Below, piece by piece: positions 1 to 63,186 of a DNA stretch of 64,000 nt. Position numbers and translations under genes: made by a program. Numbering within the stretch: the stretch's first letter is position 1; every line of letters begins with the position of its first letter. Under the pieces are notes generated by a model that did no database searches, was not told the origin of the DNA, and worked only from the letters and a program-made list of their open reading frames with translations. Source of the stretch: Mugil cephalus (Eukaryota > Chordata > Actinopteri > Mugiliformes > Mugilidae). The stretch spans positions 10,632,413 through 10,696,412 of the forward strand of contig NC_061783.1 of NCBI RefSeq assembly GCF_022458985.1, read 5' to 3'.

Positions 1-630
1 CTAAGTTCCCCTTCAACAGGTGGACTCTATTACACCTCTGTAGTTGTGCTGTGGTATCTGGCACCGACACGTGAGCATCAGATCTTTTTAGTCCTTTTAG
101 TCGTGAGCTGGGGCGTCCATGGATCAGACTGGTTTGCCCCACACATCTCACAGATGCTGGATTATACTGAGGTCTAGGGAATTTGGAGGTCAAGTAAACA
201 GCTTGAACTTGAGGAGTTCCTCAAATCATTCTTGAATCATTTTTGAGTTTTGGCTCAACACATTTGTAGTTTCTTTGACACGGTGTACGTGGTCTGCTAC
301 GATGCTTTGGTAGGTGGTTACACCCACATGAAAGACAGGACCCAAGGTCTCCCAGCAGAGGGCCTCAGCTGGCTTCTCTTCTTCCCATAGTGCATCCTGG
401 TGCCATGAGTTCCTCATGTAAGAGACACACACCATGTAAAAGGAAGCAGGACTCATGAACCAAACCACCTTCCACTCCATGATTCAACCTTGGCTGCAGT
501 GCTTTTCCTTTCTTGGACCAGTTTTGATACGGACCTCCTTGGACCATGAACTTCCCACAAGAGATACAGTCAGCATCTCAACCAACAAAAAGACAATTCA
601 CTCACCTGAAGATGTCACATAAAACCTATA
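1..630 (-). mobile_element. Decayed Tc1/mariner-like transposon, copy 1 (cut by window edge)
   Basis: On the minus strand the frame around 226-480 resembles Tc1-family transposase: it contains GCTMGRR-like and CWETLGP motifs and VADHVH (DDE-region phrases of fish Tc1 elements). Large internal pieces are missing and frames are broken, so it is not functional. The segment ends near 600-630 in a degraded terminal repeat (cacctg...gtcacataa). It keeps a block at about 100-175 that copy 2 has lost. Assignment rests on remembered family consensus. Confidence 0.7.
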
Positions 631-1047
631 ATTTATTAATTTATTCAGTAAAATTCTGACATAGTAAAACGCAGCTTTAGAAAAGACGTGTGACTTCAGC
701 TGCCCGAAGGTCGAGGGGACACAAAGGGAGACGTATTGCTTTGTGGTTGACTTTTTTCTTTTTCTTCTTCCATTTACAACAGATAAATAATAACAACATA
801 CCAAACGTAGGCATATATTTACACATCAACAATATTACAATAGTACAAAGCCTTCAACATGTCCCCTCTTGCATTGTGAACTTTGTGTTTTTTTGTTTCA
901 TCATGCAAACAGGCTTTAAACAACATTACTTTAAAAAAACACACTCGTGACAGTGGACGCTAAATACAGCCTCCTGTTGGTTTCCTCTCTGCAGCGTCAA
1001 CAGACCGACCTGCTCCTCTGCTGCCCTCAAGTGGCCACAAAACATAA

Positions 1048-1754: not shown

Positions 1755-1810
1755 ACATACAATAAATAACTAATATAACAATAATTCTGCTCTTTGAACA
1801 CAGTGAGCAG

Positions 1811-1812
<2 letters not shown>

Positions 1813-1863
<51 letters not shown>
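1813..1863. repeat. (TG)n microsatellite
   Basis: About 25 TG units. The equivalent site in duplication copy 2 (about 6143-6164) has a short interrupted tract, so the repeat expanded or contracted after duplication. Confidence 0.95.
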
Positions 1864-1870
<7 letters not shown>

Positions 1871-2418
1871 CATGTACAGGTTAATAGTGAAAATAACAAC
1901 CGCAAGGCCTTCGCATGAGACCAAATAACAGGCAGATCATGGTCCTAGCAGTTAAAGAATTTGTGGCTTTAAACCACAAATATGTGTTAAATATCGAAGC
2001 TTTTGTTAGCCCAATTCTCTTTATGATTTTTTTTTTTTAAAGTCTTGTCAACCAAGGATTTCACTTAAAAATGGCGACTCCCTAGCAAGCCAGGTGGAAA
2101 GGACGAAAAATTAGCCTCTAAAATCTCTGATTTTAGCAACTTTTCAGCATTTGACTTTAGCAAAGGTGTTATTTCCGATATAGTTTGCAGTACAAGGACC
2201 AATACATGTACACTTCATTTCCCTTTTAAACTGCACTACCCCGGTTGGTAATACTTGGATCAGAACAAACTAGCTTTGATATTTGTTGTCTGTGTAACAT
2301 TCCACATCATGTGATTTGAAATTTACTACAGGCAATGTACATTTTAGTTGTTTTTAATTAACATACTATGAAAAGAATTCATTAAGACAGTACACTTTGA
2401 TCTGCTCAAAGTCACAAG

Positions 2419-2627: not shown

Positions 2628-3110
2628 TTAACAAACTGTACGAGATGCACAAATAAAACTAAACATACTCTGGCAGGTATAGTCATTCCATGTTGTATCA
2701 CTGGTCCAGGTCTGAACACAGTTTTCTTTACCCAGAGAATTGTTTGGCTCTCCTGCCTTCCAAAAGGTAAAGTTGACCGCAGATCCATCAGACCACATCC
2801 ATGTTCCTTCCTTATAAATGTCATTAAGTCCGATCCATGTATAACCTATAGCAGGATCAAAGTTCATGATCAGGGTTTTGACGAAGTTCTGTTCTTCCGC
2901 GCTGTGGATGGACACCAGGTGGGCTCCCTCTGACATACACTGGATCTCTGCATCAGCCCACGTCAAGCGAGTGGAAATGTACTTGTAGCAGTCGCCGTTA
3001 AAGCTGAACCAAAACAAGGGACAGCTGCCACGCACTAGTGGCACTTCCTGGATGTCTGAAGGAGGCAATTCACCCAGAACCAGACCAAACAAGAAGAGGA
3101 ACAAGATCAT
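2628..3110 (-). CDS. Intronless secreted C-type lectin (single CTLD, EPN type)
   Basis: Complete 160-aa ORF with start and stop and no intron. Residues 1-13 are a hydrophobic signal peptide (MILFLFLFGLVLG). The rest is one long-form C-type lectin domain: Cys30/41 N-terminal pair, Cys58-Cys154 and Cys131-Cys146 by family pattern, WIGLND at 92-97, EPN at 121-123, and WND at 141-143. Glu121, Asn123, Glu129, Asn142 and Asp143 supply the expected calcium/sugar ligands. EPN predicts a mannose/GlcNAc-type rather than galactose-type (QPD) preference. Cys160 is an extra, probably unpaired, cysteine at the C terminus. N113-F-T is a possible glycosylation site. Size and layout resemble the fish nattectin/ladderlectin/type II antifreeze-like lectins, which are usually multi-exon. 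The intact frame, the TATA box upstream and AATAAA downstream suggest a working gene, possibly an old retrocopy. The exact orthologue is unknown. Confidence 0.88.
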   Translation of the reverse strand: MILFLFLFGLVLGELPPSDIQEVPLVRGSCPLFWFSFNGDCYKYISTRLTWADAEIQCMSEGAHLVSIHSAEEQNFVKTLIMNFDPAIGYTWIGLNDIYKEGTWMWSDGSAVNFTFWKAGEPNNSLGKENCVQTWTSDTTWNDYTCQSMFSFICASRTVC

Positions 3111-3201
3111 GGTGGATTTAAGGTCTTCAATGACTGTGAGTTGTTAATGTTTTGCTCTTGGAGGTTTTCAACAATCTGACAAACATAGGTCAGTCTACTG
3201 T

Positions 3202-4950: not shown

Positions 4951-5562
4951 TCAGCCTTAACATTATAACCTCCTGTCTGATATTGACTAAGTTCCCCCTT
5001 TTCCACCAAAACATTCCTGACCCTTCAACAGGTGGACTCTATTACACCTCTGTAGTTGTGCTGTGGCACCGAGACGTGAGCATCAGATCTTTTTAGTCCT
5101 GAGGTCGAGGGAATTTGGAGGTCAAGTAAACAGCTTGAACTTGAGGAGTTCCTCAAATCATTCTTGAATCATTTTTGAGTTTTGGCTCAACACATTTGTA
5201 GTTTCTTTGACAGGGTGTACGTGGTCTGCTACGATGCTTTGGTAGGTGGGTACATCCACATGAATGACAGGACCCAAGGTCTCCCAGCAGAGGGCCTCAG
5301 CTGGCTTCTCTTCTTCCCATAGTGCATCCTGGTGCCATGAGTTCCTCATGTAAGAGACACACACCATGTAAAAGGAAGCAGGACTCATGAACCAAGCCAC
5401 CTTCCACTCCATGATTCAACCTTGGCTGCAGTGCTTTTCCTTTCTTGGACCAGTTTTGATACTGACCTCCTTGGACCATGAACTTCCCACAAGAGATACA
5501 GTCAGCATCTCAACCAACAAAAAGACAATTCACTCACCTGAAGTTGTCACATAAAACCTATA
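4951..5562 (-). mobile_element. Decayed Tc1/mariner-like transposon, copy 2
   Basis: Begins with a degenerate fish Tc1 terminal repeat (tcagccttaacattataacc, then tcctgtctgatattg) and ends near 5560 with its degraded partner. The interior, read on the minus strand (frame at 5158-5412), keeps transposase phrases such as CWETLGPVIHVDV and SIVADHVHPVKE. It is about 0.6 kb, against roughly 1.2-1.6 kb for a full element, and most of the transposase is lost. It shares junctions with copy 1, so the insertion predates the duplication. Confidence 0.75.
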
Positions 5563-6256
5563 ATTTATTAATTTATTCAGTAAAATTCTGACATAGTAAA
5601 ACGCAGCTTTAGAAAAGACGTGTGACTTCAGCTGTCCAAAGGTCGAGGGGACACAAAGGGAGACGTATTGCTTTGTGGTTGACTTTTTTCTTTTTCTTCT
5701 TCCATTTACAACAGATAAATAATAACAACATACCAAACGTAGGCATATATTTACACATCAACAATATTACAATAGTACAAAGCCTTCAACATGTCCCCTC
5801 TTGCATTGTGAACTTTGTGTTTTTTTGTTTCATGCAAACAGGCTTTAAACAACATTACTTTAAAAAAACACACTCGTGACAGTGGACGCTAAATACAGCC
5901 TCCTGTTGGTTTCCTCTCTGCAGCGTCAACAGACCGACCTGCTCCTCTGCTGCCCTCAAGTGGCCACAAAACATAACGACAAGTACTTTTACATTCCGGC
6001 TTTAAACCACAAATGTGTTGAACCTCTGAACATGGCACAGAAACGGAGACATGTTGTCACCTCTGGAATATATAAATAAACAATATATTACAATAAATAA
6101 CTAATATAACAATAATTCTGCTCTTTGAACACAGTGAGCAGAGGTGTGTGTTTGTGTGTGTGCGTCATGTACAGGTTAATAGTGAAAATAACAACCGCAA
6201 GGCCTTCGCATGACACCAAATAACAAGCAGATCATGGTCCTAGCAGTTAAAGAATT
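4986..6256. repeat. Direct segmental duplication, copy 2
   Basis: Same-strand partner of 1-1957. It has lost the piece equivalent to about 100-175 of copy 1, retains about 25 bp near 4996-5025 that copy 1 lacks, and has no equivalent of 1048-1754. The two copies bracket the lectin gene. Confidence 0.85.
5564..5577 (-). terminator. Candidate polyadenylation signals for rapgef5
   Basis: Two overlapping-distance tttatt motifs (5564-5569 and 5572-5577) read AATAAA on the minus strand, about 2.7 kb downstream of the rapgef5 stop. The same motifs occur in duplication copy 1 (about 632-645). Use by rapgef5 is an inference; a nearer non-consensus signal could be used instead. Confidence 0.3.
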
Positions 6257-8288
6257 TCACGAAAAGCATCTTTAAAAAGAGAAGAAACAACACAGGGGTC
6301 CTGATACGAATGAACATCTGAATTCAGAAATAATAATTCCTTTAATTCATTGCACTCAGATGCTGTTGAGACAGGATCACTCGGTCTGAACAGTAGCGAA
6401 CGACGGCTAATGTTAGCAAAAAGCACAACCAGTCTGTCAACATTTGTTTAATGGAGACTTTTAGACACAAGCTAAAAGTGTCTTATTTCTCTTTTTTAAT
6501 GCAAAGTGAGAAGCTGCTAATAACACGAAACTCAAGAGTGACTACGTTTGCTTTCTTGCAATGAACCAAAGGAAAAGTTTTCAAAAAGGCAGGTTATCTT
6601 TCGTCCATTTGATCCATCCTGATCTGCAGGAGAAAGCAGCTGCTTGCTCTGAAAGGTTTAGTGTTGAAATGATGACAACATTTCTACTATATTGCACTTC
6701 ACTCCCATCCCTGCCTCCCCCATGACTTATCTAAACAACGCAAAATACGCATCGGCATATGTTCAGATGATTCCTCCGGTTGAGCAGAAATGTGCGACTG
6801 AAACGACTGACAAAGAATGAAAAGATACAGAGGGAAAAAAAACAAGGCTTTCTTGTTTTAAATTGTAAGTATCATCATCAACACTGTCATAACGACGCCA
6901 TGTTGCATTTCTTTCCTGGGGGACTTGCTGAATTTGATTAATAAGACCAACTCAGTGATTTGAAAACATGATTTTCACATGATATGGCTGCATCAACGAG
7001 AAGATGTCGCCACAATCTGAAAGAATATTTCTTTTAGCGAACTATAGTTAATGTGCCAAGTGATTTAGGGATGAATATCTTCCAGCAGAGGAAGTCTGAG
7101 TGCTTGTGCTTAAATTACTCCGTTGACACCCTGTGTTGGTTCTCACAGTTTACATGATACCACCTCAGAATGAATGGATTTTTCAGTCAGTAAGAATAAA
7201 TCCTAATAATTTAGATTTTATGGAATAAAGCTGTTAATTCACATTCTGTGTAAACACAAACAAACCTCTGAGGATTAAAAAAATAAATCAAAAAGAAAAA
7301 AATAAATCTATGCTGTGGCTATGGTTATCATAGCACAGGAAAGCACAAGTATGTGGGATCCAATGACAAAACCCTGAACTCAGTCGGCTTGATGTTAGAA
7401 AGCTTCTCTGAGAGGCGTCCGATCAGCTTTACGTGAACAGGGACCGGGCGTCGTAGCAGGGCTTCGCTCAACGAAATGCAATCCTGTGCAAAAAAGACAC
7501 TGATTCCTCCACAGTGCACCTGTGCCGCAAGAACCAACGTGAGTGACGTTTGGCACTGAGAAACATATAGGTCCATATTATATACACAATGTAAAATTAT
7601 TAGTATCTATTCACACAAAAACATCCTAGAGAAGAGAAGAGTGCACGTTTGGCTAAAGCTGTTCATTATTCAGTTACAGCTTTCAAACTCTGAAATGTTC
7701 AGGAGAGAACACGTGTTTAAATGTCTAAGTCAGTCAGCGAAACCCTCAACGTTTCCTTCACAGATCTGCTCGATGCAGACCTAAGCATGAAATCATATCG
7801 GACCACTCTGTCCTAAATGCTAGAAACGAATCAAAACCTCTCTACAGATGTTTTTGTGCCCGTGACTGAAACGATGCCATCAAGTCCTCGTCGGTGACGA
7901 GAGCTAAAGGAACATTCTACCTGCAGAACAGGCTCATAAATAACCAAAGACTGATCACAAGAACGAAACACATTCAGTCCAATAGATACTGTACAAATTA
8001 GTTACAACCGTCTCTGCTCTCAGTCTCAGTTTGGCAAAACTCCATCTCGCTGCAGTTCTAGAAATCCTTTGTAAATACACGTTAAAGAGCAAACTGAGTG
8101 CAGCTCTGTGTCTCCACCAGTTTTATCAGTGCACAACTTATTGTCCATTTGGCACCAACGCTGGTCGCGTGATGTTGCTGCAGCGTACGTGCGAGTGTGT
8201 GACATTTCGCTGTACAAAGTGTCCTCCATGTCACGCGGCGTCAGCTCCTCCGCTGTGTCCAATTGTGTCTGCGCTCGTGTGCGCGCGT
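5578..8288 (-). other. rapgef5: Probable rapgef5 3' UTR
   Basis: Sequence downstream of the rapgef5 stop with no further exon. It is A/T rich and contains the downstream part of duplication copy 2. A minus-strand ORF of 82 codons (7328-7576) lies inside but matches nothing I recognise. Confidence 0.45.
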
Positions 8289-8407
8289 TCAGGCGCGTGG
8301 CTCCAGTTTGTGCGACAGTTCGAAAAGTGTCTGCTGATTGTCGATAATGTGCAGGTACTGAACGCTCGCCCTCACCTCCGCACTGTCGACCCCGATCACC
8401 TCGTTGC
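8289..8407 (-). CDS. rapgef5: rapgef5 exon 25 (C terminus and stop)
   Basis: Encodes [20 protein letters not shown], then RA and TGA at 8289-8291. Confidence 0.95.
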
Positions 8408-11400
8408 CTGAGAGACGGACACAGAACACGTATGCTGGTTGTCAGACAGGTGAGTTTTGTGAGTGGGCTCAAAAACACACACACACACACACAGACACAG
8501 ACACGCAAACACTTAACAAAAATACACCATATTATTGCAATATAGAGAAAATAAAAGACTGTCTGGAAGTGGTTGCTTAGAAACTGTGAGGAAAAACTGA
8601 GTGGGTGAGCCCTCTGGCTCAGGCGCAGTATACCAACTCAACTGCAGATGGCGATAGACTCTTCACTATAAACGCATCCAAACACTTGGTCACAAGCAGA
8701 AACATGACTGTAAAGAGCTCCTATTGCTGAGGATGTGTCATCATTCGTGATTCACTCGGAAAAGAGGAGACTCACCCTGTTGGTCGCTTTGGCAGTGGCG
8801 AATCATTCTCACCGTGTCTGCGATCATGTGCTGTTGGTTCAGGAGAAGACATTTTAAATAAAAATCTTCAAAATGAGTCTACACTGATACCTCAGCTGTC
8901 GATACTGGACCTTGATCTTATGTTTTGGGCAAAATAATGGCAACTGTGCCACCGTTTAAGGTGCAATAAAAAATACAATATAGAGCTTGGTCTTGGTAAA
9001 ATTCCACTAAACACATAAAGGTTTGGTCATTAGCTCCAGACAAATGTAACCTTCTCTACTATGTTTGTTAACGTCTAGAGACACTAATGCATATATTCAT
9101 ACTGTAGAGCCAGGCAGCTTTGCCTATAATACACCGAAGGAAAGGCTGTGAACAGCACAAGGCACGAGAACCCGGAAAGGCACAATTACTTCAATGTCAC
9201 ATTGAAATGGTCTGAGGCTTAAGAGACTGCAGGACTGACTTGACTTACCAGCTTCTCAAAATTGACCAGGTTGTCATGGAAGGTCTTATTTCCCTCATGG
9301 ATAAAAGTGATATCTAGAAGCAGCAGACAAACGTATTTAGGTTTTATTCAATGTTTTTCAAACTTGTGTTTTTGTGTGTGTGTGTGAAGCGAGGATACCT
9401 TTTAGGAGAAGAGGCATGAAAGGGATCTTGGGAGGTTTCATCCTCTTGAAGGCCTCTCTGTAGGCTTTGTGGTTCAGAGACGGATCCTGGAGAGAGACGC
9501 AGTGGAAAAAAAAAAAAGAAGAATTGGAAAGGATTCGTCATCAAATCAGAAGAGGAAGACATTTGAAGCTCTGGTTGAGTCTCACCGTGATGAGCTCCAG
9601 CTCTGAAAAAAGCTTCTTGAACTTCCCTGGACATTTCTGAAAAGGAAGAAGTTTCGTCAGAGCGGGATTTAACATGCAAGGCTTGTGCTGGAGGAGACGA
9701 CAACATCAACACACACACACACTTACCTCCCACGTCTGGTTGAGTCGGCTGACAGCTGCGGTGTTGAGACCCATGATGATGGCGAATGCAGAGTTCAGAT
9801 TTCTTTGGGCTTTACAGCTACGTACAACACACAAAGATGTAGAAACTGAAACGTTGAGGTCTTCAGTAAATCATTTGGGTTTATGTCACAGTGCGAGTGT
9901 CCTTACTGGGCTGCGATCTTGATGAACTTCTTGAGCAGCTGCACCCTCTTGTTGAGGGATACACACATGAGCACCTCGGACATGACCCACTGCTGGACTT
10001 CATTGCAACGCTGCAGCAGAACTGAGAGCGCTGCCGTGTGGCCAGAGCCAGGAGCGCGGCTGAGGGTGTAGTACACCAGCTCCTGCTGCATGTGGACATA
10101 GGGAAGAGTTTGTGTGAATGTCCACTCATGATCCTATTATCACTCCGTATGTCCAACTAACAAAAGGCTAAATAAGATCACTCTGAAACCGTATAAAACA
10201 GAGAAAATCAGTTCATGAGCACATCTGAGAAACGGGAAACTTGGTTTAGATTTCCTAAAGGTACAAAGGTGCAGTCTGCCTGTCTCTGTCTGTGCTGTGC
10301 TGAACCGTTTGCACAAGAAATATTCAACTCTTCCTGAAAGGCGCTCAGCTGCAAGCTCAGATGTACCCGTAATGCAGAAAGTCTAGTGGAGCATTTGCAT
10401 CTTTAATGCCAGCAATCTCTGTTATGAATATGAATTTCTAACTCCCCGTGCCCACATTCCACATGCATATATTTGTGTATGTGCGAGTGCCGCACCTCGT
10501 GGATGGATTTAAAAAGGCTCCAGTCCAGGTGCGTGAGAGCAGCGGCAACATCCCAGGTGTTGATGCCCAGGAGCCGAACCGGCCTCCTGCTCAGCTCCGC
10601 ACTGTCTGTTAGGGGAGGCTGCAAACAATGAACACAAATAAAGAAAGTACGTAAGAGGGAAAAGAGTACAAGCAGCATCTCACCTTCATTAGAAACTAAA
10701 GGACAAAGAGGCTCATGGGGGATTTGAATTCATACAACAATAGAGCACGATGCCATAAGATCACGTGTTTTACTGGTAACATAGAAGAAATCCTGATACA
10801 GGTCACTATAACTACATTAACTACAAATTCTGCAAAACCGGCATTGACTCAGGAGACAAAATGTTCCCAGACGAAGCTAAATATTACATTCCCACAAAGG
10901 TCTAACGTATAGGAATGTGATTCAGAAAGCCTCCCAAAAAGTACCTAATGCCTAAACAGTCAATTTTAAGAGTTTGTGCTTTGATTTTTACCTGCAAACA
11001 GAATTTTTTAGCGGCTTTCAGCGCTTACGGAAAATAAGAGAAGAAGCACAAACAGAGCGGTGCATATACATACCAAGATCTCATTGAGATCCCTGCGACA
11101 GGCCACAAGCTTTCCCTGTGGGGTCAGAGACTCGGAATAAACACAGTCACTGGGTTGTAACATCCTCCGCTCTGCAGAGACAAAGAAGAAAGAAGGAGGC
11201 GGTGACGATGAGAATAATTTAAAGCCAAGAGTGTAGAACAGTGATTCCCATCCAGGGGACTTGTTCTCCTGTTTGTACCTTTGCAGATTACCAGTAATTT
11301 TGACTTCTTTTTAAGTCATACCAGCATTTTATATTCTGTGAATGTGTTTATTTCAGATAAACTATGTGTCTACTCCACTGTGAGCCAAAGTAACAATTTT

Positions 11401-14400
11401 TTTTTTAATACATGCACCAATGGTGTTTGTTGAATGACAATAAAATAAGTCTAAGCCTCTAAGTCTAAAACCTACTTTACTGGTCTGCAAGCAAAACTAG
11501 TGTAAGCATTCAGAGAAATCCAAACAGTGATGGATAAATAGTATTAAATCAATACACTACTAAATGAATAACAATAAGCCATTTCACACTGTACCTCCAG
11601 TGTGCGACACCACAGCGAGCACCATGTCTTCCTCTGCTCTGTCCATCTTCAGACCTACAATCCTCAGCAGCTCGTGGGCCTCCAACGAGGGGTTCGTGTG
11701 GATGCTCAGGTAGGAATCAGCACTCACATACACACAGCAAATAACTGAAAAATACACGGAAATGTTCGATGAAGTCATAATGAAGCACGTGCAGAACAGA
11801 GAGAGACTTGAGGTCAGGTTAAGAGCTGACGCAGACGAAAAGACGCCATTTACGCCATTTGTCATTATGCATAATTGTGTGCATTTTTGGACGGTGTGCG
11901 TCTACATGTGCGCTTGTGTTTGTGTCTGTTACTCACCCTCTCTGGTGTCAGTCTGTGGGCTGCGGAACTGCAAACAGTTTTCCTTCAAACTCAGCTGCTG
12001 ATACATCTGTTTGCTCTGAGAGAGAGAGAGAGAGAGAGAGAAGAAGAAACATGAAGATTTAAGTACACTATCTAAAATGTACGAAATCTTAAAACTTATT
12101 AGATATCTGTATTATTTTAAAATGTGGATATTTTTATATTTGAATGCACTTAATGCACATATTCAACGCACCTGTACAAACTAATACAGTAACTTTTAAC
12201 TTAAAATCAATAGCAAGATTTGTAAATATTCTTTCACCGCCCATTTTACCTTTTGGTTTGGAGGGCAGTCATCCACCGTACTAGAAGAAAAGAAAAAAAA
12301 AACACACATCCAACTGTGAGGAGTGATGCCAGGAAGAGAAAGGGCACGACATTTCTTGGCAATCAAATTTAATGCTGTTGTTGTGCGCAGACAAACCCAC
12401 TTACTGTCTGCGACGCAGAAGTTTCTGAAACTCCTTCAGGTCTTTCTCCAATGTGGGGAACTCGTACAGATCTTCTAAGACACACCTGTACAGAGTCTGT
12501 CAGGTGGACAGAAAAGAAATTGGATATCAATGACAGCTCAGACTAAATACTTTCTGGCAAACCAATTAATTTGACCCAAAGTCACGAGAGCAGAAATATC
12601 AGCAAACGTCCATTTCTAACTGGGCAGGTACTGACACCGAGGCTCAGCTTACAGTGTCAGCAACATCTCAAATTCACAGCTACACAAAGAGCGACCTCAA
12701 TAGAACTTAACTACAAAACTCTGCCTCTTTGACACTACCTGCATTTCAAACAAGTTGTCATGACGATCGTCGCACAGCTATATATATATATATTAGTGAA
12801 ACAAAGAAAAGGTACAGAGCATGAACACAACTGCGCAGCTCATTTGCTGAACACCATCACGTCAAACATCAAATTCTCTAAGACAAATTAGTGACAACTC
12901 AGTAACACTAAACTCACAAGGACCCACATCCAGACTTGTGCATTTCCACACACCTCCTCATCGCCGTCATTGACCCAGCATAGCCTCCAATTCCAATTCC
13001 CCTCTCGTTCCTCTGTTACTAGGCAACTATCACCTGGGTTACGCACTCTGTATGAAATTATACCCATGCCAACCCTACCACTTTGGTTTCCATGGCAACA
13101 CAGCACAGAGCAATGGAGCTGTCAGGTTATGGAGGGACAAGTGATTGGTGAGTGTGTGTGTTTTTGTGGTGTTGTGTGTCTGTATTTGTCGGTTTATCTT
13201 TTGGCGTCACACGTGGCCCAATCATTTCAGTCCCTCGTGTGAAAATAGCAGGAACACAATGGACACCAGCAGCATTAGTAATGAAAAATGTGACAAGGTA
13301 TGATCTGCATGTGCATATTTTCAATTACAAAGATCTCTGAGTGCTGGATTTTGCATGTAAAATAAAAAGGTTTCACTTTTGACAATTTTATTTTATTATT
13401 TTCTATTTAAACACAGCCCGTACCACAATAATCCCTCTGATTATTTTGTATTCTCTGAAACCACAACGACATATTACGATTACACCCCCTCAGTCCTCAC
13501 ATGAAGCCAACGAAGCCGTCTGTTTTTGTCCCGCTTCTTTGTCAGAAGGATGAAATAAAAACATCAACATGCTTCCCTTGTGGGAGAAAGCTCGGAGAAA
13601 TCACTAACGCACTTTCAGCTCCCTGTCTCTCTGATGTCCTGTCATGCAGAACTTAAGAAGGTATAGAGCTAAAATGAAGATGAATGCGGGCTATTTCTTT
13701 CTCAATATGTGAAAAAGACACCTGAGGATCAAGCATATTCAATCACTGAAATAAAAAGGCATTAAAAACACTGGGGGCGGTGAAGGACGTTAGTACCGAC
13801 ATACCTTCATGAAGCTCCTGACATGCTCCTCTTCTTTGAGGAAGTCCTTGTAAAGTCTGCTCCAGTGTGAGACCAGCTGCAGTACCTTACGCTTCCTGAA
13901 GAGGGCGTCTTTGCCCTCCTCCTGGCCCCTGCAGCGAGCGCTGCTATAGGTGACAGAGGTCAAGGAGACAACAGAGGAGAGTGAGGAATGTGAAATGATT
14001 CGTGCGTGTATGTGATTATGTTTTTTTCAGGAAGGATATTGTCCCAGTAGAGCCTGGCAGAGGTCATGAGTGGACATGAACACCAGGTAGGTCAACAGGA
14101 AGTCGTCCAGGAGCATTTCTGAAACACATTATTAGAGAACACATCATTAGCCACCTCATCGGCGACATGGTCCAAAGGAGCTTCCCTCCTAATTTGTGGA
14201 ATTAAGATAAGGAAAGTCACATGAAAGTCTTTCAGGTTCTCCATTTGTATCTCTGTTCATTTGAAGTGACAAATCGTACACTTGTTACTTAATTCTCTCA
14301 ACTTCAAAACATTAGAAATTCACATTTAAACAAATTGTTTTACTTATCGAAGAAATAAAGCAAAGATTGGACCTTCAAGCTCCGGCTTAATGTCCAGATT

Positions 14401-15244
14401 TCTTCTTTTAAAATAATTTAAATCACGTGTAATGTGAAAGGCGTCACTTGTAGTGATGAAACCACTGTAGACGACAAGAATTTTAAGCAAACGCTAAGGA
14501 TCCCCAAAGCATTTTGGTCTCTTTCAGCTAACTATCATCATTTTATGGAATGCAAATTTATTTTACTTTCATTTCTCATGGTCACAACTGGCAGCTGTTC
14601 TCAGCAAGAAGATCTCTAAAGTCCTACTGTGCACTGCCTGCTCAGAAAGGCCTTCTTTTATTCTTGAGGACTCAGTGGGGATGAAAAACAACAGCTAAAA
14701 GGTGAGTGAATTGAACTTCATTTCATCAGATGGCCTGAAACACAACGGCAAATTAATAACTGTTTTTTTTTTTTTTCTCTGTATCTCATGTTGTGTGTAC
14801 ATTGGAAACCACAACCTTGACACTAACACATCCATCGTGTGATAAGGGAACGTGCTGATAGTACTGTCGTATCTCAGTGAGATGTCAAAATAAAGTTCTG
14901 TGTGTGTAGCTCTGCAGACTATGACTTTGGAGTTGGAGGGATTTTTGTGTACGTTCCTTATGCTGCCACGATCGATGAAATCCTTTCCAAGTAAGCAGAT
15001 TATCAGAATCCTCTAATACATTTTTAAGTGCTCTTTTCCAGAAACGAACATTGACAAAGAGGCATGAGGGTTAATCTTTCTCTGTGCTTATAATTTTAAC
15101 AACTTGAAACAGTGAAATGTATCAGAGGAAGCTGCAGAGGAAGAGAGACCCAACAGGTGACCAATGGTAAGAACCAAATATAAACGGCCCTTGTGGCAGA
15201 TGGGTAATGAGCCATTGTCGGTGGTGCCAAGGATATGTGGTTGG

Positions 15245-15325
<81 letters not shown>

Positions 15326-18300
15326 TGTCTTTCCCTGGGAAATGTGTGACCCAAATATGGCACTGTCAAGCAGAGAGCAACGAAATCAATTATAGAAGAC
15401 TGAGCATAGGCCGCGGCATCAATATTTGATCAAGCGTCTTCTCTTTAAAAATAAAAACAAGACTTTCTCGACTCTCTTTAAGGCAGGTCCGACTTATCAC
15501 TTTTTCAGAACCCTTTTCACTTGCTTTCCTGTCACTCTCTCTTTTCCGAGACCTTCAGTCCTCCATCTATTTACGTCCTTTATTGACCAGCTCTTGGCCC
15601 TTTTCCTTGCTTTTTCTGCTTCCCTCTTTTCTCCAACGCAAACCTCCTTCCCCACACCTGTTTTTCATTTTCTCTTCTTGGTGATTACGTTTCCCCCGCT
15701 ACTTCACTCCTCCTACGCCCGACTCTCTCTTAGCTCTGTGCGATGATAAATATCCATTTTCTTCTTCAACATATGCCCTCTGCGTTTGCCCGCTGGCACA
15801 CGCAAAGTCAAACACTCATGGATGCTGCAGTGCACACACACAAACGCACGCACACACGCAGCACCCTGATGAATAACTCATTCACTCCCGACCTTGGGGA
15901 CTTTATCTCTTGCGAGAGAGAAAGAAAAAAAAAGAGGAGAAAATGTGTGTGTGCTGAACTAATCGCAGTAATCTGCTGCTGTGTTTTTTGTTTATGTGTA
16001 CGTGGAGGGGGGCGGCTGGGGTAATCGCTCTCTCTCCGTGGAAGCATGTTTGAGCCTGTTCAACATGCTGCACGGCTAAAGCTGCTAAAACGGCGCATGA
16101 ATGCTCAGCACCACCCCAGAGGGCCCGTGCACACACAAACATACAGAAACATTTACATCATACGCTTATTCGGGGCGCACAGACTAAAATCCAAACACAA
16201 ACAGACGCAGATGCAGCGAGAACCAAACATGCGCATAAACTCCGCAGCCCCCCCCGCTCCTGCCTCTCCCTCCGCACCCGCACAAAAAGCGAGTGTTTTT
16301 CTTTTTAAGCGAATAAATATCAGGCGGACTTCCTCCACAAAGACCATCTCAGTTCTCGCTCGCCGTCTCTCTCTCGCATTTATCTCTCCCTCTTTCTTCG
16401 CTTGCTTCCTGCAATTCAGTGAGATGGCTCCCTGTGGACTGCTGGGAACTGGTGGTGCTGAGGAGTTGATGCATAAAGGCGCCTTGTCTCGAAGCGGTGC
16501 TAACAGGCAAGAGAAGGAGTTTTATAAAACCCAAGTTGGGACCCAGATGTCCCTGTGTAATAACAGCATTAATTCACCTGGGTTTCATATCGCTACTGAA
16601 TTTAATTGGAAGGAAAGAAGTAACGCGCATTTCCCTAGTGAGCAGGAGTGGTTCTGTGCGATATTTTACCTTTAGTCACCTCTTCTTCTACTTCAGCTCA
16701 AAACAATGATTAATCAAACAGTAGGACTGCCACTATCATGAAAAGTTATTTGATGATTAATTGCAAATAACAGTTTAATTTCCTAATTTCTTTAAATGCT
16801 ATTTTGAGATGATATTAGAAGTTAAGTGCCTTGAGATTAAACAGTTGTCACTAATTCTGCCATCAGGCGTCTTTGAACCACAACAAAACTACACAAGTTA
16901 CACAGATGATTATGTAACAGTGGTGACAGGAGAAAAATGTATCAACAATGGAGATAATCAACTATCCATCACTGCTTTCCTTCAAAACATCTAAAGAGGT
17001 GAAATATTCCCTACACATCTGCTGTTTTCTAATAACTGAACACAGTGACTTTCAGCGTGGCCTATGTGCTCACTGCCCTGCTATGAAACTGATGACAAAA
17101 TGATCCCCAGGGTAAAAAAACTGTAGCACAGTACAGTAACAGCAGGAGTATCAAAGAAAAACTGACATGTTGTTGTTTGTACTCGCTGAAGTAGTTTGAA
17201 GCAGAAAGTTCCTGCAACACCCCTAGGCAATCATTTCACAAACCCATTAGAGCATTTGAGCTGTTGAACGATCCTTGTATTTACAGGCAATGACATGGCT
17301 CGGTGAATGCACCTGGATGTGCAAGAGCGGACTCGCACACTAAAACACAGAGTGGTATCACAGAGGGGAAGTGCATACCTCCGGAGTTTGAACCCACGTC
17401 TGTGAAAATGAAAGAGACAGAGGAAGGACCAATCCGGGCAGTGTTGTGACTTGTTGTATAGCTTTGAAAAGAGGAGTGGTGCTTTGTTTAATAAGAGCTG
17501 AAACAAATACTTAAGCTGGCTGACCTTTTATTTATTTATCTCATCCCAATTCTAGCCCTTTCTACTTATGTGTGCTGTCACATTCTATGTAGAGATGCCC
17601 CCACACGGATGAGCCTCTGTGCACCATGTATACAAATCATGTGTGTGTCTCCAGACTTACCGCTCTCCCTGTTTTCCGGTGCGCCTCTTTGGTCGTCCAG
17701 TCGCAGGTCACTTAGCAGATGTTCCAAGATCTTGAGTGGCGTTCCCGACACCACCACATACCTGTAGGACGAGAAGTCAGAACAGTCTTCCTCACTAGAG
17801 CAAGAGTACCAACCACGGCCACTTTTATCTCTCCACCCTCCTCCCTCTTCGTCGGTATTCTCGTCCGCATCGTCGTCATCGATGTAGCGAAAATAGGGAA
17901 CATCGAACGCAGAGATTTTGGAACCGCTACCATCTGGATCAGGATTGCCATCCTCGTCCTCGTCTTCATCGCTGTCGTCGTCGTCGTCTATGTCCTCCTC
18001 TGCCTCTGCAAGTGTAGCTAGCTCAGAGGTCATCTTCCTATCTGAACACGACCCATCAGCCGGCCCTCTTCAAGCCTTCGCATGCTCGGGAAGGGTTATT
18101 GTCTGTGGGGCCGCCTGGCCCTGTCAGCTAAGAGCTCCAGAGATTAAAACCCTCTCTCTGACAGCTCCTACAGCAGAACTGGGAGGGAACCGACCGCTGC
18201 TGAATGCCCTGAAAATGGTACACTCACATACACACCCACTTAACCTGCCTGTCACAGGCACTCCTTGCTTTGTGCCTTAGGTCTTGGCATGCGCTGACTT

Positions 18301-55645: not shown

Positions 55646-56029
55646 ACACTCTGGATACGTTTGTTTATAACCTCTGTTAATTAATATAAATTCTCCAGTT
55701 GGTTGCCATGTCCATCCTTACATGGATTCTGCACATCTTACATAACTTTTATTTATTCCTTTTCTAGTTGCAGCTGTCAAAAAGTGCATTGCAAGTACTG
55801 CATTAGTGACATGTTTAATGGAAGTAGTGATATCTAGAGAGTGCCAAAGAATAAATATCAAGGAATTTGGCTTAATAAATCTTTTACATTTAAAAGTCAT
55901 ACTAAGAAACTATGACAAAAAACTCTTGAACTGTTTAGAAGTTTAAAGTTAAGCTGAGGTCGTCTTTCAGTAAGTCTTAGACTCAGGGTATCCTTCATCA
56001 TTTTTCAATAGGAAACTGAAGCTACTGTG

Positions 56030-60175: not shown

Positions 60176-62990
60176 CTAGAGGAAAATGCATAGTCAAAAT
60201 TAATGATGTCCCTTTGAAAAATTGAAAACCTCATCGTACACCGTGCTCTTCATTTCCCGTTACCAACTGCTGTGTCTGTAACATTCAAGCCCCCTGGTTC
60301 TGTATGTTTCTCATTCTGCTCCAGTTTTAAAAAACTGAATGTGGAAAAAAGATTTATTTCTTCGTGTACAGGGCGAACCAAGATGTCCAACTAACTCCTG
60401 TGCTCTCCGCTTTTCATTCGTTGACCACACAGTGTTGTTATGACATGTGGAATGTGAAGCACTTGGTGCAAATGCTCTTTTCTTTTAAGGAGCTATATGA
60501 ATGAAATAAACTTGAGAGTGGGGCGTCTGTCAGGGTTGGTGAACAACTTCGTCTCATGTTGTGGAGCAAACCACCTACATCATCACAGCCAAAACTAAGG
60601 AGAGGGTGGTGGGTTTCTGGAGGTTTCTGTCCCTCCTGCAGCCTGTAACCATCAACGGGGAGATGGTTCAGACCTTTATGTAGCCAGATGTATTAACATT
60701 TCCCAGTAAGTACTGGAGATGTTTCATCAGCTCCCCCGCGACACTGTCTGGGACAAGTGCTTATGGAAAATGTCGTCCCGTCCTTTTTTTTTTTTTTTTT
60801 TACCCCATTAGCGGGGGTAGACGGACGCCCACACTAATTTTTATTCAATCTGAGGTTTCTTCCTGTCAAGAGGGAGTTTTTACTCCCCACTCTTGGGAGG
60901 GGAACTTGTTGTCGGGTTTCCCTCAGTAATACTGTAAGCTCTTGACCACACTATGTAAAGCGTCCTGAGAGGACTTTCTAATTTACTTCCATGTATGAAG
61001 CTGAACTTCTGATGCAACTGGAATCCTCCTCGCCGATACTTCTGCATTATTCGGCCAGCAGTAAAATTAACTACTAATGTCACGGTTCCATTGGCAGCCG
61101 TATACGTTCAAACCACAACGAAACCACCACGTTTGGCAGATGGACACGATATGTTCCTATTGTTCTCAATGTTGGTTAAAAAACAACAACTCTGTATTAT
61201 TGTGACAAATCAATCTGTCGTTACCTCAACACCGTGGGCTCTGGCATTCCTGGATCTGCTCCCCGTTTGAAACCTGAAATTAAAAAAATAAATTAAAAAA
61301 ATCACAGAAAATAATTAAAAGCATGTTTTAGAAAAGACCCAAGAAATGACTGAGGATTTACATTTACACATTAAGAGTGTTATAATAGCTGGGAAATGCC
61401 TGCACATGTAAATTCATTGACGATATCGTTTCGATACTGGGTCAGAAAGTCATTCTGCTCGAGTGATTACAATGTGTCAGCAGATTTGTCCCTGGCAAAC
61501 ACCCCAGTTTCGTTAAACTACAACATTGCATCACAACGCAGAAAGTAAAGGGGCCACGTAATCGCCTATGAAAATCAGCCAGCAGCACATTCATTTCCCC
61601 AATACATCCAGGTCACAGATAGTCAATTATGACGCAACAAATTCTAAAGAAAAGGGCAAGAGATTCCTAAAGACTAAAAATGGCCTCATTTAAATTTAAA
61701 TTTAAATAAATCTCTTAACCTAGACCAAAACCGCTGTCCACAAATTTGTAAATATTGCATTTACTCTACAAAATGCCTTAAAATAACTCCGAATAGTAAC
61801 AATCAGCCCGAGCTGTTCTACCACTAAGTATTCACATCAAATGAGTTCGTTTTAGCAGCAGAAGCAGTAAAAGTGTTCTGATCCTCTATTAGAAAAGTTG
61901 AAGCCCACACAGATTAATCAATTAATTGCTTGTTTTAATACATATCATGTATCGCATGGCCGACTCACGCTATGGCTATTTGAAATATCGAGAAGCCAAT
62001 AACACAAAAGTAACGCATGTCTAATTTAAGAGAGGCTGAAGTAAAAAAAAAGCTCCAAGAGAGAAGTGACCAACCTAAAGAGTAAAAAATAGACGGGAGA
62101 AAGTTTGACATCAGCATTGGTCTTTCCAAAATGCTGCAGTCGGAGAGGATTCACTCAAATGGGGCAAATCCGCCGGCTGTGTGGTCACATATGCAAAAGT
62201 CTCAACTTCCCCATCTACATGCTCCATGTCGCAGCCATGCAAACGTCTCAACTTCCCCAACATCTCTTCAAACCATGACGAGCCACATCAGTGCCCAAAA
62301 ACATGCAGCACTAAGAAACAGGCGTGCATGTATGTTTCAAAATGAACTTTTAAACCCACTACAGGATGCACTTCTTCAACCTACAATAGAGGACGCATGA
62401 CTTTAATCCTTCAAGACCATCAATTAACCAAATTATCATCCAAACTGATCTGCATGTGGGAAATAGAATATAAAAAGCTCCCTTCATTTCTCTGTATGTT
62501 CTTGTATCAACACAGAATTACAGTATTTGACTTTTCATTTTAATATCCCACTCATCATGTCCATGGATGTGACTGCATGATGGATAATGATGCAGTGCAT
62601 CTCTTCACCACAGAGGGGGGGCATCTACAGTCAACCACCAAGTCAATAAAAACTGGGACTAGAAACCTTGTTATCTTATTATATTTGACAGAGAGTTTGC
62701 GTTACGAGCGCACTAAAACACACACACACACAAAAATGGAGCTCAACATACACCCGCATACCCATGGGGAAATAATACCACTAACAGCTAATTCGTAAAT
62801 GCTAACTAACTAAGCTAACCGGCTAACATTAGCGAGGCTTGAATCCTCATCTCGCCGCACTCCATCTGCCCCTGTCCGGATACTGACCGAGGTACAGCAC
62901 GGTTGGGATAAAACCCCATCGGATGACAAACTGGCCGCATTGGAACAGCTGCTGCAGCCGCTGTTTGGTCTCTTTGCTGAGTTTAGCCAT
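60160..62990 (-). CDS. tomm7: tomm7, TOM complex subunit TOM7 (three exons, 55 aa)
   Basis: Coding exons: 62888-62990, 61225-61273, 60160-60175, giving 168 nt and 55 aa, the same length as human TOMM7. Sequence includes MAKLSKETKQRLQQLF, then the single transmembrane segment around FVIRWGFIPTVLYLGFKRG, and the conserved tail DPGMPEPTVLSLLWG. All sites are GT-AG and phases agree. The product sits in the mitochondrial outer membrane, where TOM7 modulates assembly of the TOM import complex and, in mammals, PINK1 retention. The intron splits the codon for the Gly after VLYL. Gene order with il6 matches human. Confidence 0.97.
60480..61000. repeat. Degraded dispersed fish repeat in tomm7 intron 2
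   Basis: Contains the familiar phrases agctatatgaatgaaataaa near 60490 and gaggtttcttcctgtcaaga, then gggagtttttactcccc, near 60850. These resemble a very common fish element whose family I cannot name with certainty. A poly-T run lies at about 60785-60801. Confidence 0.5.
61225..61273 (-). CDS. tomm7: tomm7 exon 2
   Basis: 49 bp, acceptor atttcag, donor AG/gtaacg. Encodes GFKRGADPGMPEPTVL. Confidence 0.95.
61274..62887 (-). other. tomm7: tomm7 intron 1
   Basis: 1.6 kb. Contains two imperfect direct copies of aagtctcaacttcccca / acgtctcaacttcccca (about 62197 and 62243). No other element recognised. Confidence 0.5.
62888..62990 (-). CDS. tomm7: tomm7 exon 1
   Basis: 34 codons plus one base, donor G/gtcagt. 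Encodes the cytosolic N terminus and most of the membrane span. Confidence 0.96.
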
Positions 62991-63039
62991 GTGTTTTATT
63001 CCCGGACACAGCGACGCTCCTGCGGCTTCCAAGGGCACG

Positions 63040-63120
63040 GAAGAGGAAGTGACGTCGACGGAACTGCACCGACGTTCTTCATTTGTCATTGGCCGCCACC
63101 TTGTGGACAGACGCGGGGCT
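63040..63120 (-). promoter_or_regulatory. tomm7: tomm7 proximal promoter (CCAAT, YY1-like)
   Basis: The minus strand has CCAAT at 63088-63092 and, next to it, CAAGGTGGCGGC, one base off the YY1 consensus common in mitochondrial-gene promoters. About 100 nt upstream of the ATG; no TATA. Confidence 0.5.
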
Positions 63121-63186
63121 GCAGGTCATTTACAACACACTGATGGAGCAAAAGTTACCCACTTTTAAACCACACTTAGCCATTGT

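Follow-up and report, generated by a model that had tools for sequence, protein, structure and literature searches.

The REM (RasGEF_N) domain of rapgef5 in Mugil cephalus is almost certainly interrupted by an inherited minor-spliceosome (U12-type) intron of the AT-AC subtype, located at 13950..14039 (minus strand) of the 64,000-nucleotide stretch of DNA that was analyzed (hereafter, the window). A preliminary description had proposed a 90-bp AT-AC U12-type intron in this domain, and splice signals, reading frame, and paralogue positions all bear this out. The intron is best read as an old inherited feature and not as a new phenomenon. The features of the window to which we refer are as follows, with a slash marking splice junctions.

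8289..17985, minus strand: rapgef5 coding exons, 15 exon pieces and 14 introns (exon model)
14040..14118, minus strand: upstream REM exon (exon model)
13950..14039, minus strand: predicted AT-AC U12-type intron, 90 nt, phase 2 (CA/C, a His codon), from splice ends, frame, and paralogue positions
14032..14039, minus strand: 5' splice site ATATCCTT; extended by one base, it agrees with RTATCCTTT at 8 of 9 positions
14027..14029, minus strand: in-frame TGA reached on intron retention (read-through translation)
13959..13967, minus strand: branch-site-like CTCCTTGAC, 8 of 9 to TTCCTTRAY
13950..13951, minus strand: 3' terminal AC (CTCTGTCAC/CTATAG), from the sequence and the enumeration of frame-keeping pairs
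13941..13949, minus strand: CTATAG/CAG with two in-frame AG ends, at 13944 and 13941 (sequence)
13805..13949, minus strand: downstream REM exon, followed by a modeled GT-AG intron (exon model)
62847..63125, minus strand, upstream of rapgef5: tomm7-like exon (Tom7, 34.7 bits, profile positions 1-27 of 41)
2628..3143, minus strand: 171-codon open frame, downstream of rapgef5 by about 5 kb, encoding a C-type lectin domain within one frame (91 bits)

The gene and its surroundings

The gene was identified as rapgef5 because the modeled chain contains RasGEF_N and RasGEF domains, both above the Pfam cutoffs, and an RA region closest to RAPGEF5 (solved RA domain 1wgy, 61 bits, versus 37 bits for RAPGEFL1). 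The whole modeled chain (578 residues without a start) matches RAPGEF4 best (403 bits). The model begins at an arbitrary point, 17985, and is incomplete at its 5' end, and one of its boundaries, near 11745, is uncertain; within the exons modeled, a cyclic-nucleotide domain is absent. Among the 14 modeled introns, 13950..14039 is the sole one combining a U12 donor (8/9) with a branch motif (8/9), and its standing as one AT-AC intron among 14 is partly by construction, because the other 13 were sought as GT-AG introns only. The GT-AG intron at 9314..9398 (minus strand) has a U12-like donor, GTATCCTC (7/9), and a major-type 3' end. This segment, with donor GTATCCTCGC at 9398, was considered as a U12 intron and rejected; its best branch motif reached 6/9, at 22 nt. 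Since the rapgef5-like copy on C11 carries GTGCGCTTCT at the same donor place, the 9398 donor is probably a weak major-type donor. Elsewhere in the window there is a direct duplication (167..1047 and 5099..5976; 881 aligned bases, 98.5% identity, copies separated by approximately 4.9 kb) and an additional, weaker match (1758..1962 and 6089..6257), and an Rfam search of the 64-kb window at gathering scores yielded no matches.

Splice signals, reading frame, and competing readings

Read on the minus strand, 14039..13950 is ATATCCTT...CTCCTTGAC...CAC, exactly 90 nt, starting with ATATCCTTCC and ending with CTCCTTGACCTCTGTCAC (in a longer reading, ATATCCTTCCTG...TGTCTCCTTGACCTCTGTCAC). The U12 consensus is RTATCCTTT for the donor and TTCCTTRAY for the branch site, and U12-type introns are without a polypyrimidine tract before the 3' splice site. 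The donor 9-mer ATATCCTTC agrees with the U12 consensus at 8 of 9 positions and scores 2/6 as a U2 donor; the donor consensus itself agrees with the examples in Table 1 of PMC7367187. The pyrimidine fraction of the intron, scored over 17 bases, is 0.76, and those of the 13 other modeled rapgef5 introns range from 0.65 to 0.94. The donor, the 3' AC, and the branch site 10 nt before the end that had been described are all present, where 10 nt is the distance from the branch A (13960) to the last intron base; the motif CTCCTTGAC ends 9 nt before the end.

The chance occurrence of this architecture (i.e., ATATCCTT and then, inside 120 nt, a branch motif matching at 8/9 or better and AC) was estimated from 300 first-order Markov simulations of 64 kb, both strands. 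It was expected 0.05 times per 64-kb window over both strands and was seen once. The 8-mer alone is not significant, because approximately 2.0 occurrences of ATATCCTT are expected per window and 2 were seen (14039 and 15236, both on the minus strand). The second of these lies within the upstream intron, pairs only with the same acceptor, at 1,287 nt, and was rejected. A strong U12-like donor motif, GTATCCTTCA, also occurs at 55988 (plus strand), with no exon identified beside it.

Excision of the 90 nt gives CQALLG-H/Y-SSARC in the REM domain, and the product joined at 14040/13949 is above the Pfam cutoff for RasGEF_N (36.6 versus 28.3 bits). Exact removal had been said to restore a conserved His-Tyr in frame, and the junction HY does align on the HY of RAPGEF4/Epac2 in solved structures. 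From one REM exon to the next, 48 pairs of splice ends keep the frame; 25 of them (4 GT-AG, 6 GC-AG, and 15 AT-AC) were compared and the other 23 (AT-AG, AT-AA, and GT-AC) were counted only. Among the 25, 14039..13950 alone gives G-H-Y-S-S without loss or insertion; several AT-AC pairs retain the upstream residues but add others, and one of these has the same donor and ends at the branch motif. A major-spliceosome intron of the GT-AG or GC-AG type with slightly shifted ends is very unlikely: the 10 such pairs do leave the frame open, but the four GT-AG pairs all depend on the same poor donor (CAT/GTCCACTCA) and each removes 13 or more residues, all six GC-AG pairs lose ALLGHYSS, and the residues equivalent to those deleted are retained in the paralogues. 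The AG ends at 13944 and 13941 lie within reach of U12 AT-AG use (introns of 96 and 99 nt), which makes microvariation at the 3' end possible.

Excision of an AT-AC intron by the major spliceosome has precedent, as U2-type AT-AC introns are described in PMC2831892 and PMC8280824. However, the sodium channel introns of this type given in PMC2831892 all have G at +5, whereas +5/+6 of the 90-nt intron are CC; the U12 branch motif 10 nt from the intron end and the U12-type introns at the same REM place in nine other genes (see below) also argue against this reading, which we regard as highly improbable. The idea that the 90 nt are no intron and are retained in the mature mRNA can draw on a length that is a multiple of three, but the retained segment has an in-frame TGA at its fifth codon and nine related genes are also interrupted at the REM place, leaving this reading with a negligible probability. 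The same stop corrects one point of the preliminary description, which had expected standard GT-AG gene finders to miss the intron and create a false frameshift. They would indeed miss it, but because 90 is 3 x 30, retention causes no frameshift but an in-frame stop (read-through Q-Y-P-S-stop, with TGA at 14029..14027), and the conserved REM domain would be displayed with an apparent in-frame stop.

The same REM place in other genes of the genome

Searches of the M. cephalus genome covered the 635-Mb assembly (24 contigs) and led to models of a phase 2 U12-type intron at the REM place in ten genes: two rapgef5 (the window gene and a second copy), two rapgef4-like, one rapgef3-like, one rapgefl1-like, one rapgef1-like, and three rasgrp-like. 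Seven of the modeled introns are AT-AC and three are GT-AG. The position is thus conserved, with U12 signals, in nine further homologous genes of this one genome, "same place" having been judged by eye from local matches except in one three-sequence alignment. The paralogue introns are to be read as models, because their acceptors were selected by demanding continuation of the protein. The nine are as follows.

C11, rapgef5-like: ATATCCTTA..CAC, 232 nt, AT-AC
C7, rapgef4-like: ATATCCTTT..CAC, 1,161 nt, AT-AC
C1, rapgef3-like: ATATCCTGC..CAC, 136 nt, AT-AC
C12, rapgef4-like: GTATCCTTG..CAG, 84 nt, GT-AG
C20, rapgefl1-like: GTATCCTTC..CAG, 1,651 nt, GT-AG
C8, rapgef1-like (L022): ATATCCTCA..CAC, 505 nt, AT-AC, R/Y
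C1, rasgrp-like: GTATCCTTC..CAG, 897 nt, GT-AG, K/S
C13, rasgrp-like: ATATCCCAT..CAC, 2,018 nt, AT-AC, I/Y
C9, rasgrp-like: ATATCCTGT..CAC, 213 nt, AT-AC, L/Y

The protein search (36 matches) yielded the five Epac/RAPGEF5-type genes (C11, C7, C20, C1, and C12), which show the same break and phase as the window gene, with donors of 7 to 9 of 9. They were named from RA matches (RAPGEF5, C11; RAPGEF4, C12 and C7; RAPGEFL1, C20), and the C1 gene was named rapgef3 by exclusion. The branch motif is 6/9 in C7 and 7/9 in C11, C12, C8, and the rasgrp-like genes of C1 and C9, and the residue after the junction is Phe in C20 and Ser in the rasgrp-like gene of C1 instead of Tyr. Read-through reaches a stop inside the intron in all six Epac/RAPGEF5-type genes, window included, and in all three rasgrp-like genes; the rapgef1-like copy, L022, which we take to be rapgef1/C3G-like, is outside this count.

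A 56-residue RASGRP2 query gave four matches (E values of 1.2e-5, 0.025, 0.165, and 7.18) in a limited search, so that more rasgrp genes are possible. The first three, two of them with weak E values (0.025 and 0.165), are the rasgrp-like loci, each with a U12-like donor at the place and with a downstream exon (CHLLK, CYLMR, and CHLVR) resembling RASGRP chains; the fourth (L063; residues 23-56 only) has no U12-like donor. The RasGEF_N search returned 19 matches, namely, the window, two in loci already fetched (C2:30238818 and C17:19032551), and 16 that were then fetched. A U12-like donor of at least 7/9 was found at the REM place in 2 of these 16 (L022 and L024), and the other 14 have no donor of at least 7/9 within -4 to +44 of it. 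Five rows of the protein search, on C5, C15, and C10, lie near L014, L021, and L012, all among these 14; L014 and L021 presumably belong to the RAPGEF2/6 type. In L017, L018, and L020 (C11, C2, and C2), which we take to be other exchange factors of the RalGDS/SOS types, the REM exon ends AG/GT at the same R/Y phase 2 place with a stop directly after, which suggests an intron with a U2-like donor there; the U2-like donor score, calculated for donors only, is 5/6 in L018 and L020 and lower in L017. Class conversion of the same ancestral intron is possible in these three loci. No relative was confirmed in the prokaryotic or viral contig collections, where the search produced 65 and 3 pattern matches, respectively.

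That so many genes share the position points to a common ancestral U12 intron. We consider it somewhat probable that the Rap-GEF (rapgef1/3/4/5/L1) and RASGRP genes both received their intron from one exchange factor of the REM-CDC25 type, with other relatives having lost it or carrying U2-like donors at that place. The seven AT-AC and three GT-AG introns would then imply up to three subtype switches, and the two rapgef4-like copies, one AT-AC and one GT-AG, represent a case of subtype difference after gene duplication. If this history is true, Rap activation and Ras activation would share an exposure to the activity of the minor spliceosome, and retention in the nine copies that were read would stop translation in the intron, halfway through REM and before the catalytic domain. 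With its shared position, the Rap-GEF/RASGRP set offers a compact natural test of U12 intron persistence and subtype switching after duplication, and of whether the minor spliceosome limits Rap/Ras signaling.

Predicted splicing and comparison with published minor introns

In the minor spliceosome, U11 and U12 bind the donor and the branch site. We infer that 13950..14039 is actually spliced in this manner: U11 would recognize ATATCCTT, U12 would recognize the branch site CTCCTTGAC, and the intron would be excised from the conserved His-Tyr, where it splits the His codon in phase 2. One U12 snRNA match, a predicted gene, is found in the genome (C20:4465539-4465691; 123 bits versus a gathering score of 53). 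Retention would place the in-frame stop in the middle of REM, so that translation would end ahead of the RA and RasGEF domains, and the product would probably be lost through nonsense-mediated decay or nuclear retention. A dependence of rapgef5 mRNA levels on the minor spliceosome, as raised in the preliminary description, is a reasonable inference. The U12 introns retained in zrsr2-mutant zebrafish are shorter (median, 451 bp versus 1,398 bp; PMC9501576), and minor introns of the AT-AN class, which require CENATAC, show comparatively high retention at baseline (PMC8280824). The 90-nt AT-AC intron fits both sets by its length and ends and, being short and AT-AN, is predicted to be sensitive to retention; the word rapgef is absent from the main texts of both papers.

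The literature already describes minor introns in Rap-GEF and RASGRP genes (PMC6865273 and PMC2831892), so the rapgef5 intron is a new example of a known and deeply conserved kind, less surprising than the preliminary description implied and, for minor-intron specialists, an ordinary phenomenon. Judged by titles and abstracts, no paper among the matches listed reports a RAPGEF5 minor intron; three that contain both RAPGEF5 and U12 as words seem, from their titles, to be unrelated. None of the literature matches listed states one shared position for the Rap-GEF and RASGRP minor introns, which may well be known to specialists or in databases. For RASGRP, PMC12332006 lists RT-qPCR primers that target a U12 intron of mouse Rasgrp2. 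The reverse primer translates to KTCHLV, a REM segment, and CCTTAAC followed by TTTAC/CT is present in the forward primer; together they point to a U12 intron at the same REM place. In the three-sequence alignment, the I-Y of RASGRP2 falls on the H-Y of the window gene, and the Tyr is invariant.

PMC2831892 reports that U12 introns are very stable among vertebrates and describes intron 11 of fly Epac as the orthologue of intron 16 of human RAPGEF3, both being U12 introns of the AT-AC subtype. These two share with the rapgef5 intron the AT-AC subtype and the Rap-GEF family, with conservation reported from fly to human, but they belong to a different paralogue. The rapgef3-like gene of this genome has its U12-type intron at the REM His-Tyr place. 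PMC6865273 concerns the same gene families, and its passage on them gives percentages, not positions, whereas the shared position proposed here derives from one genome. The figure of 71% for Rap-GEF would correspond arithmetically to 5 of 7 genes, which fits the U12-type introns in the RAPGEF1, 3, 4, 5, and L1 types. The 5-of-7 reading also fits the two RAPGEF2/6-like loci (L014 and L021) that are without a U12-type intron.
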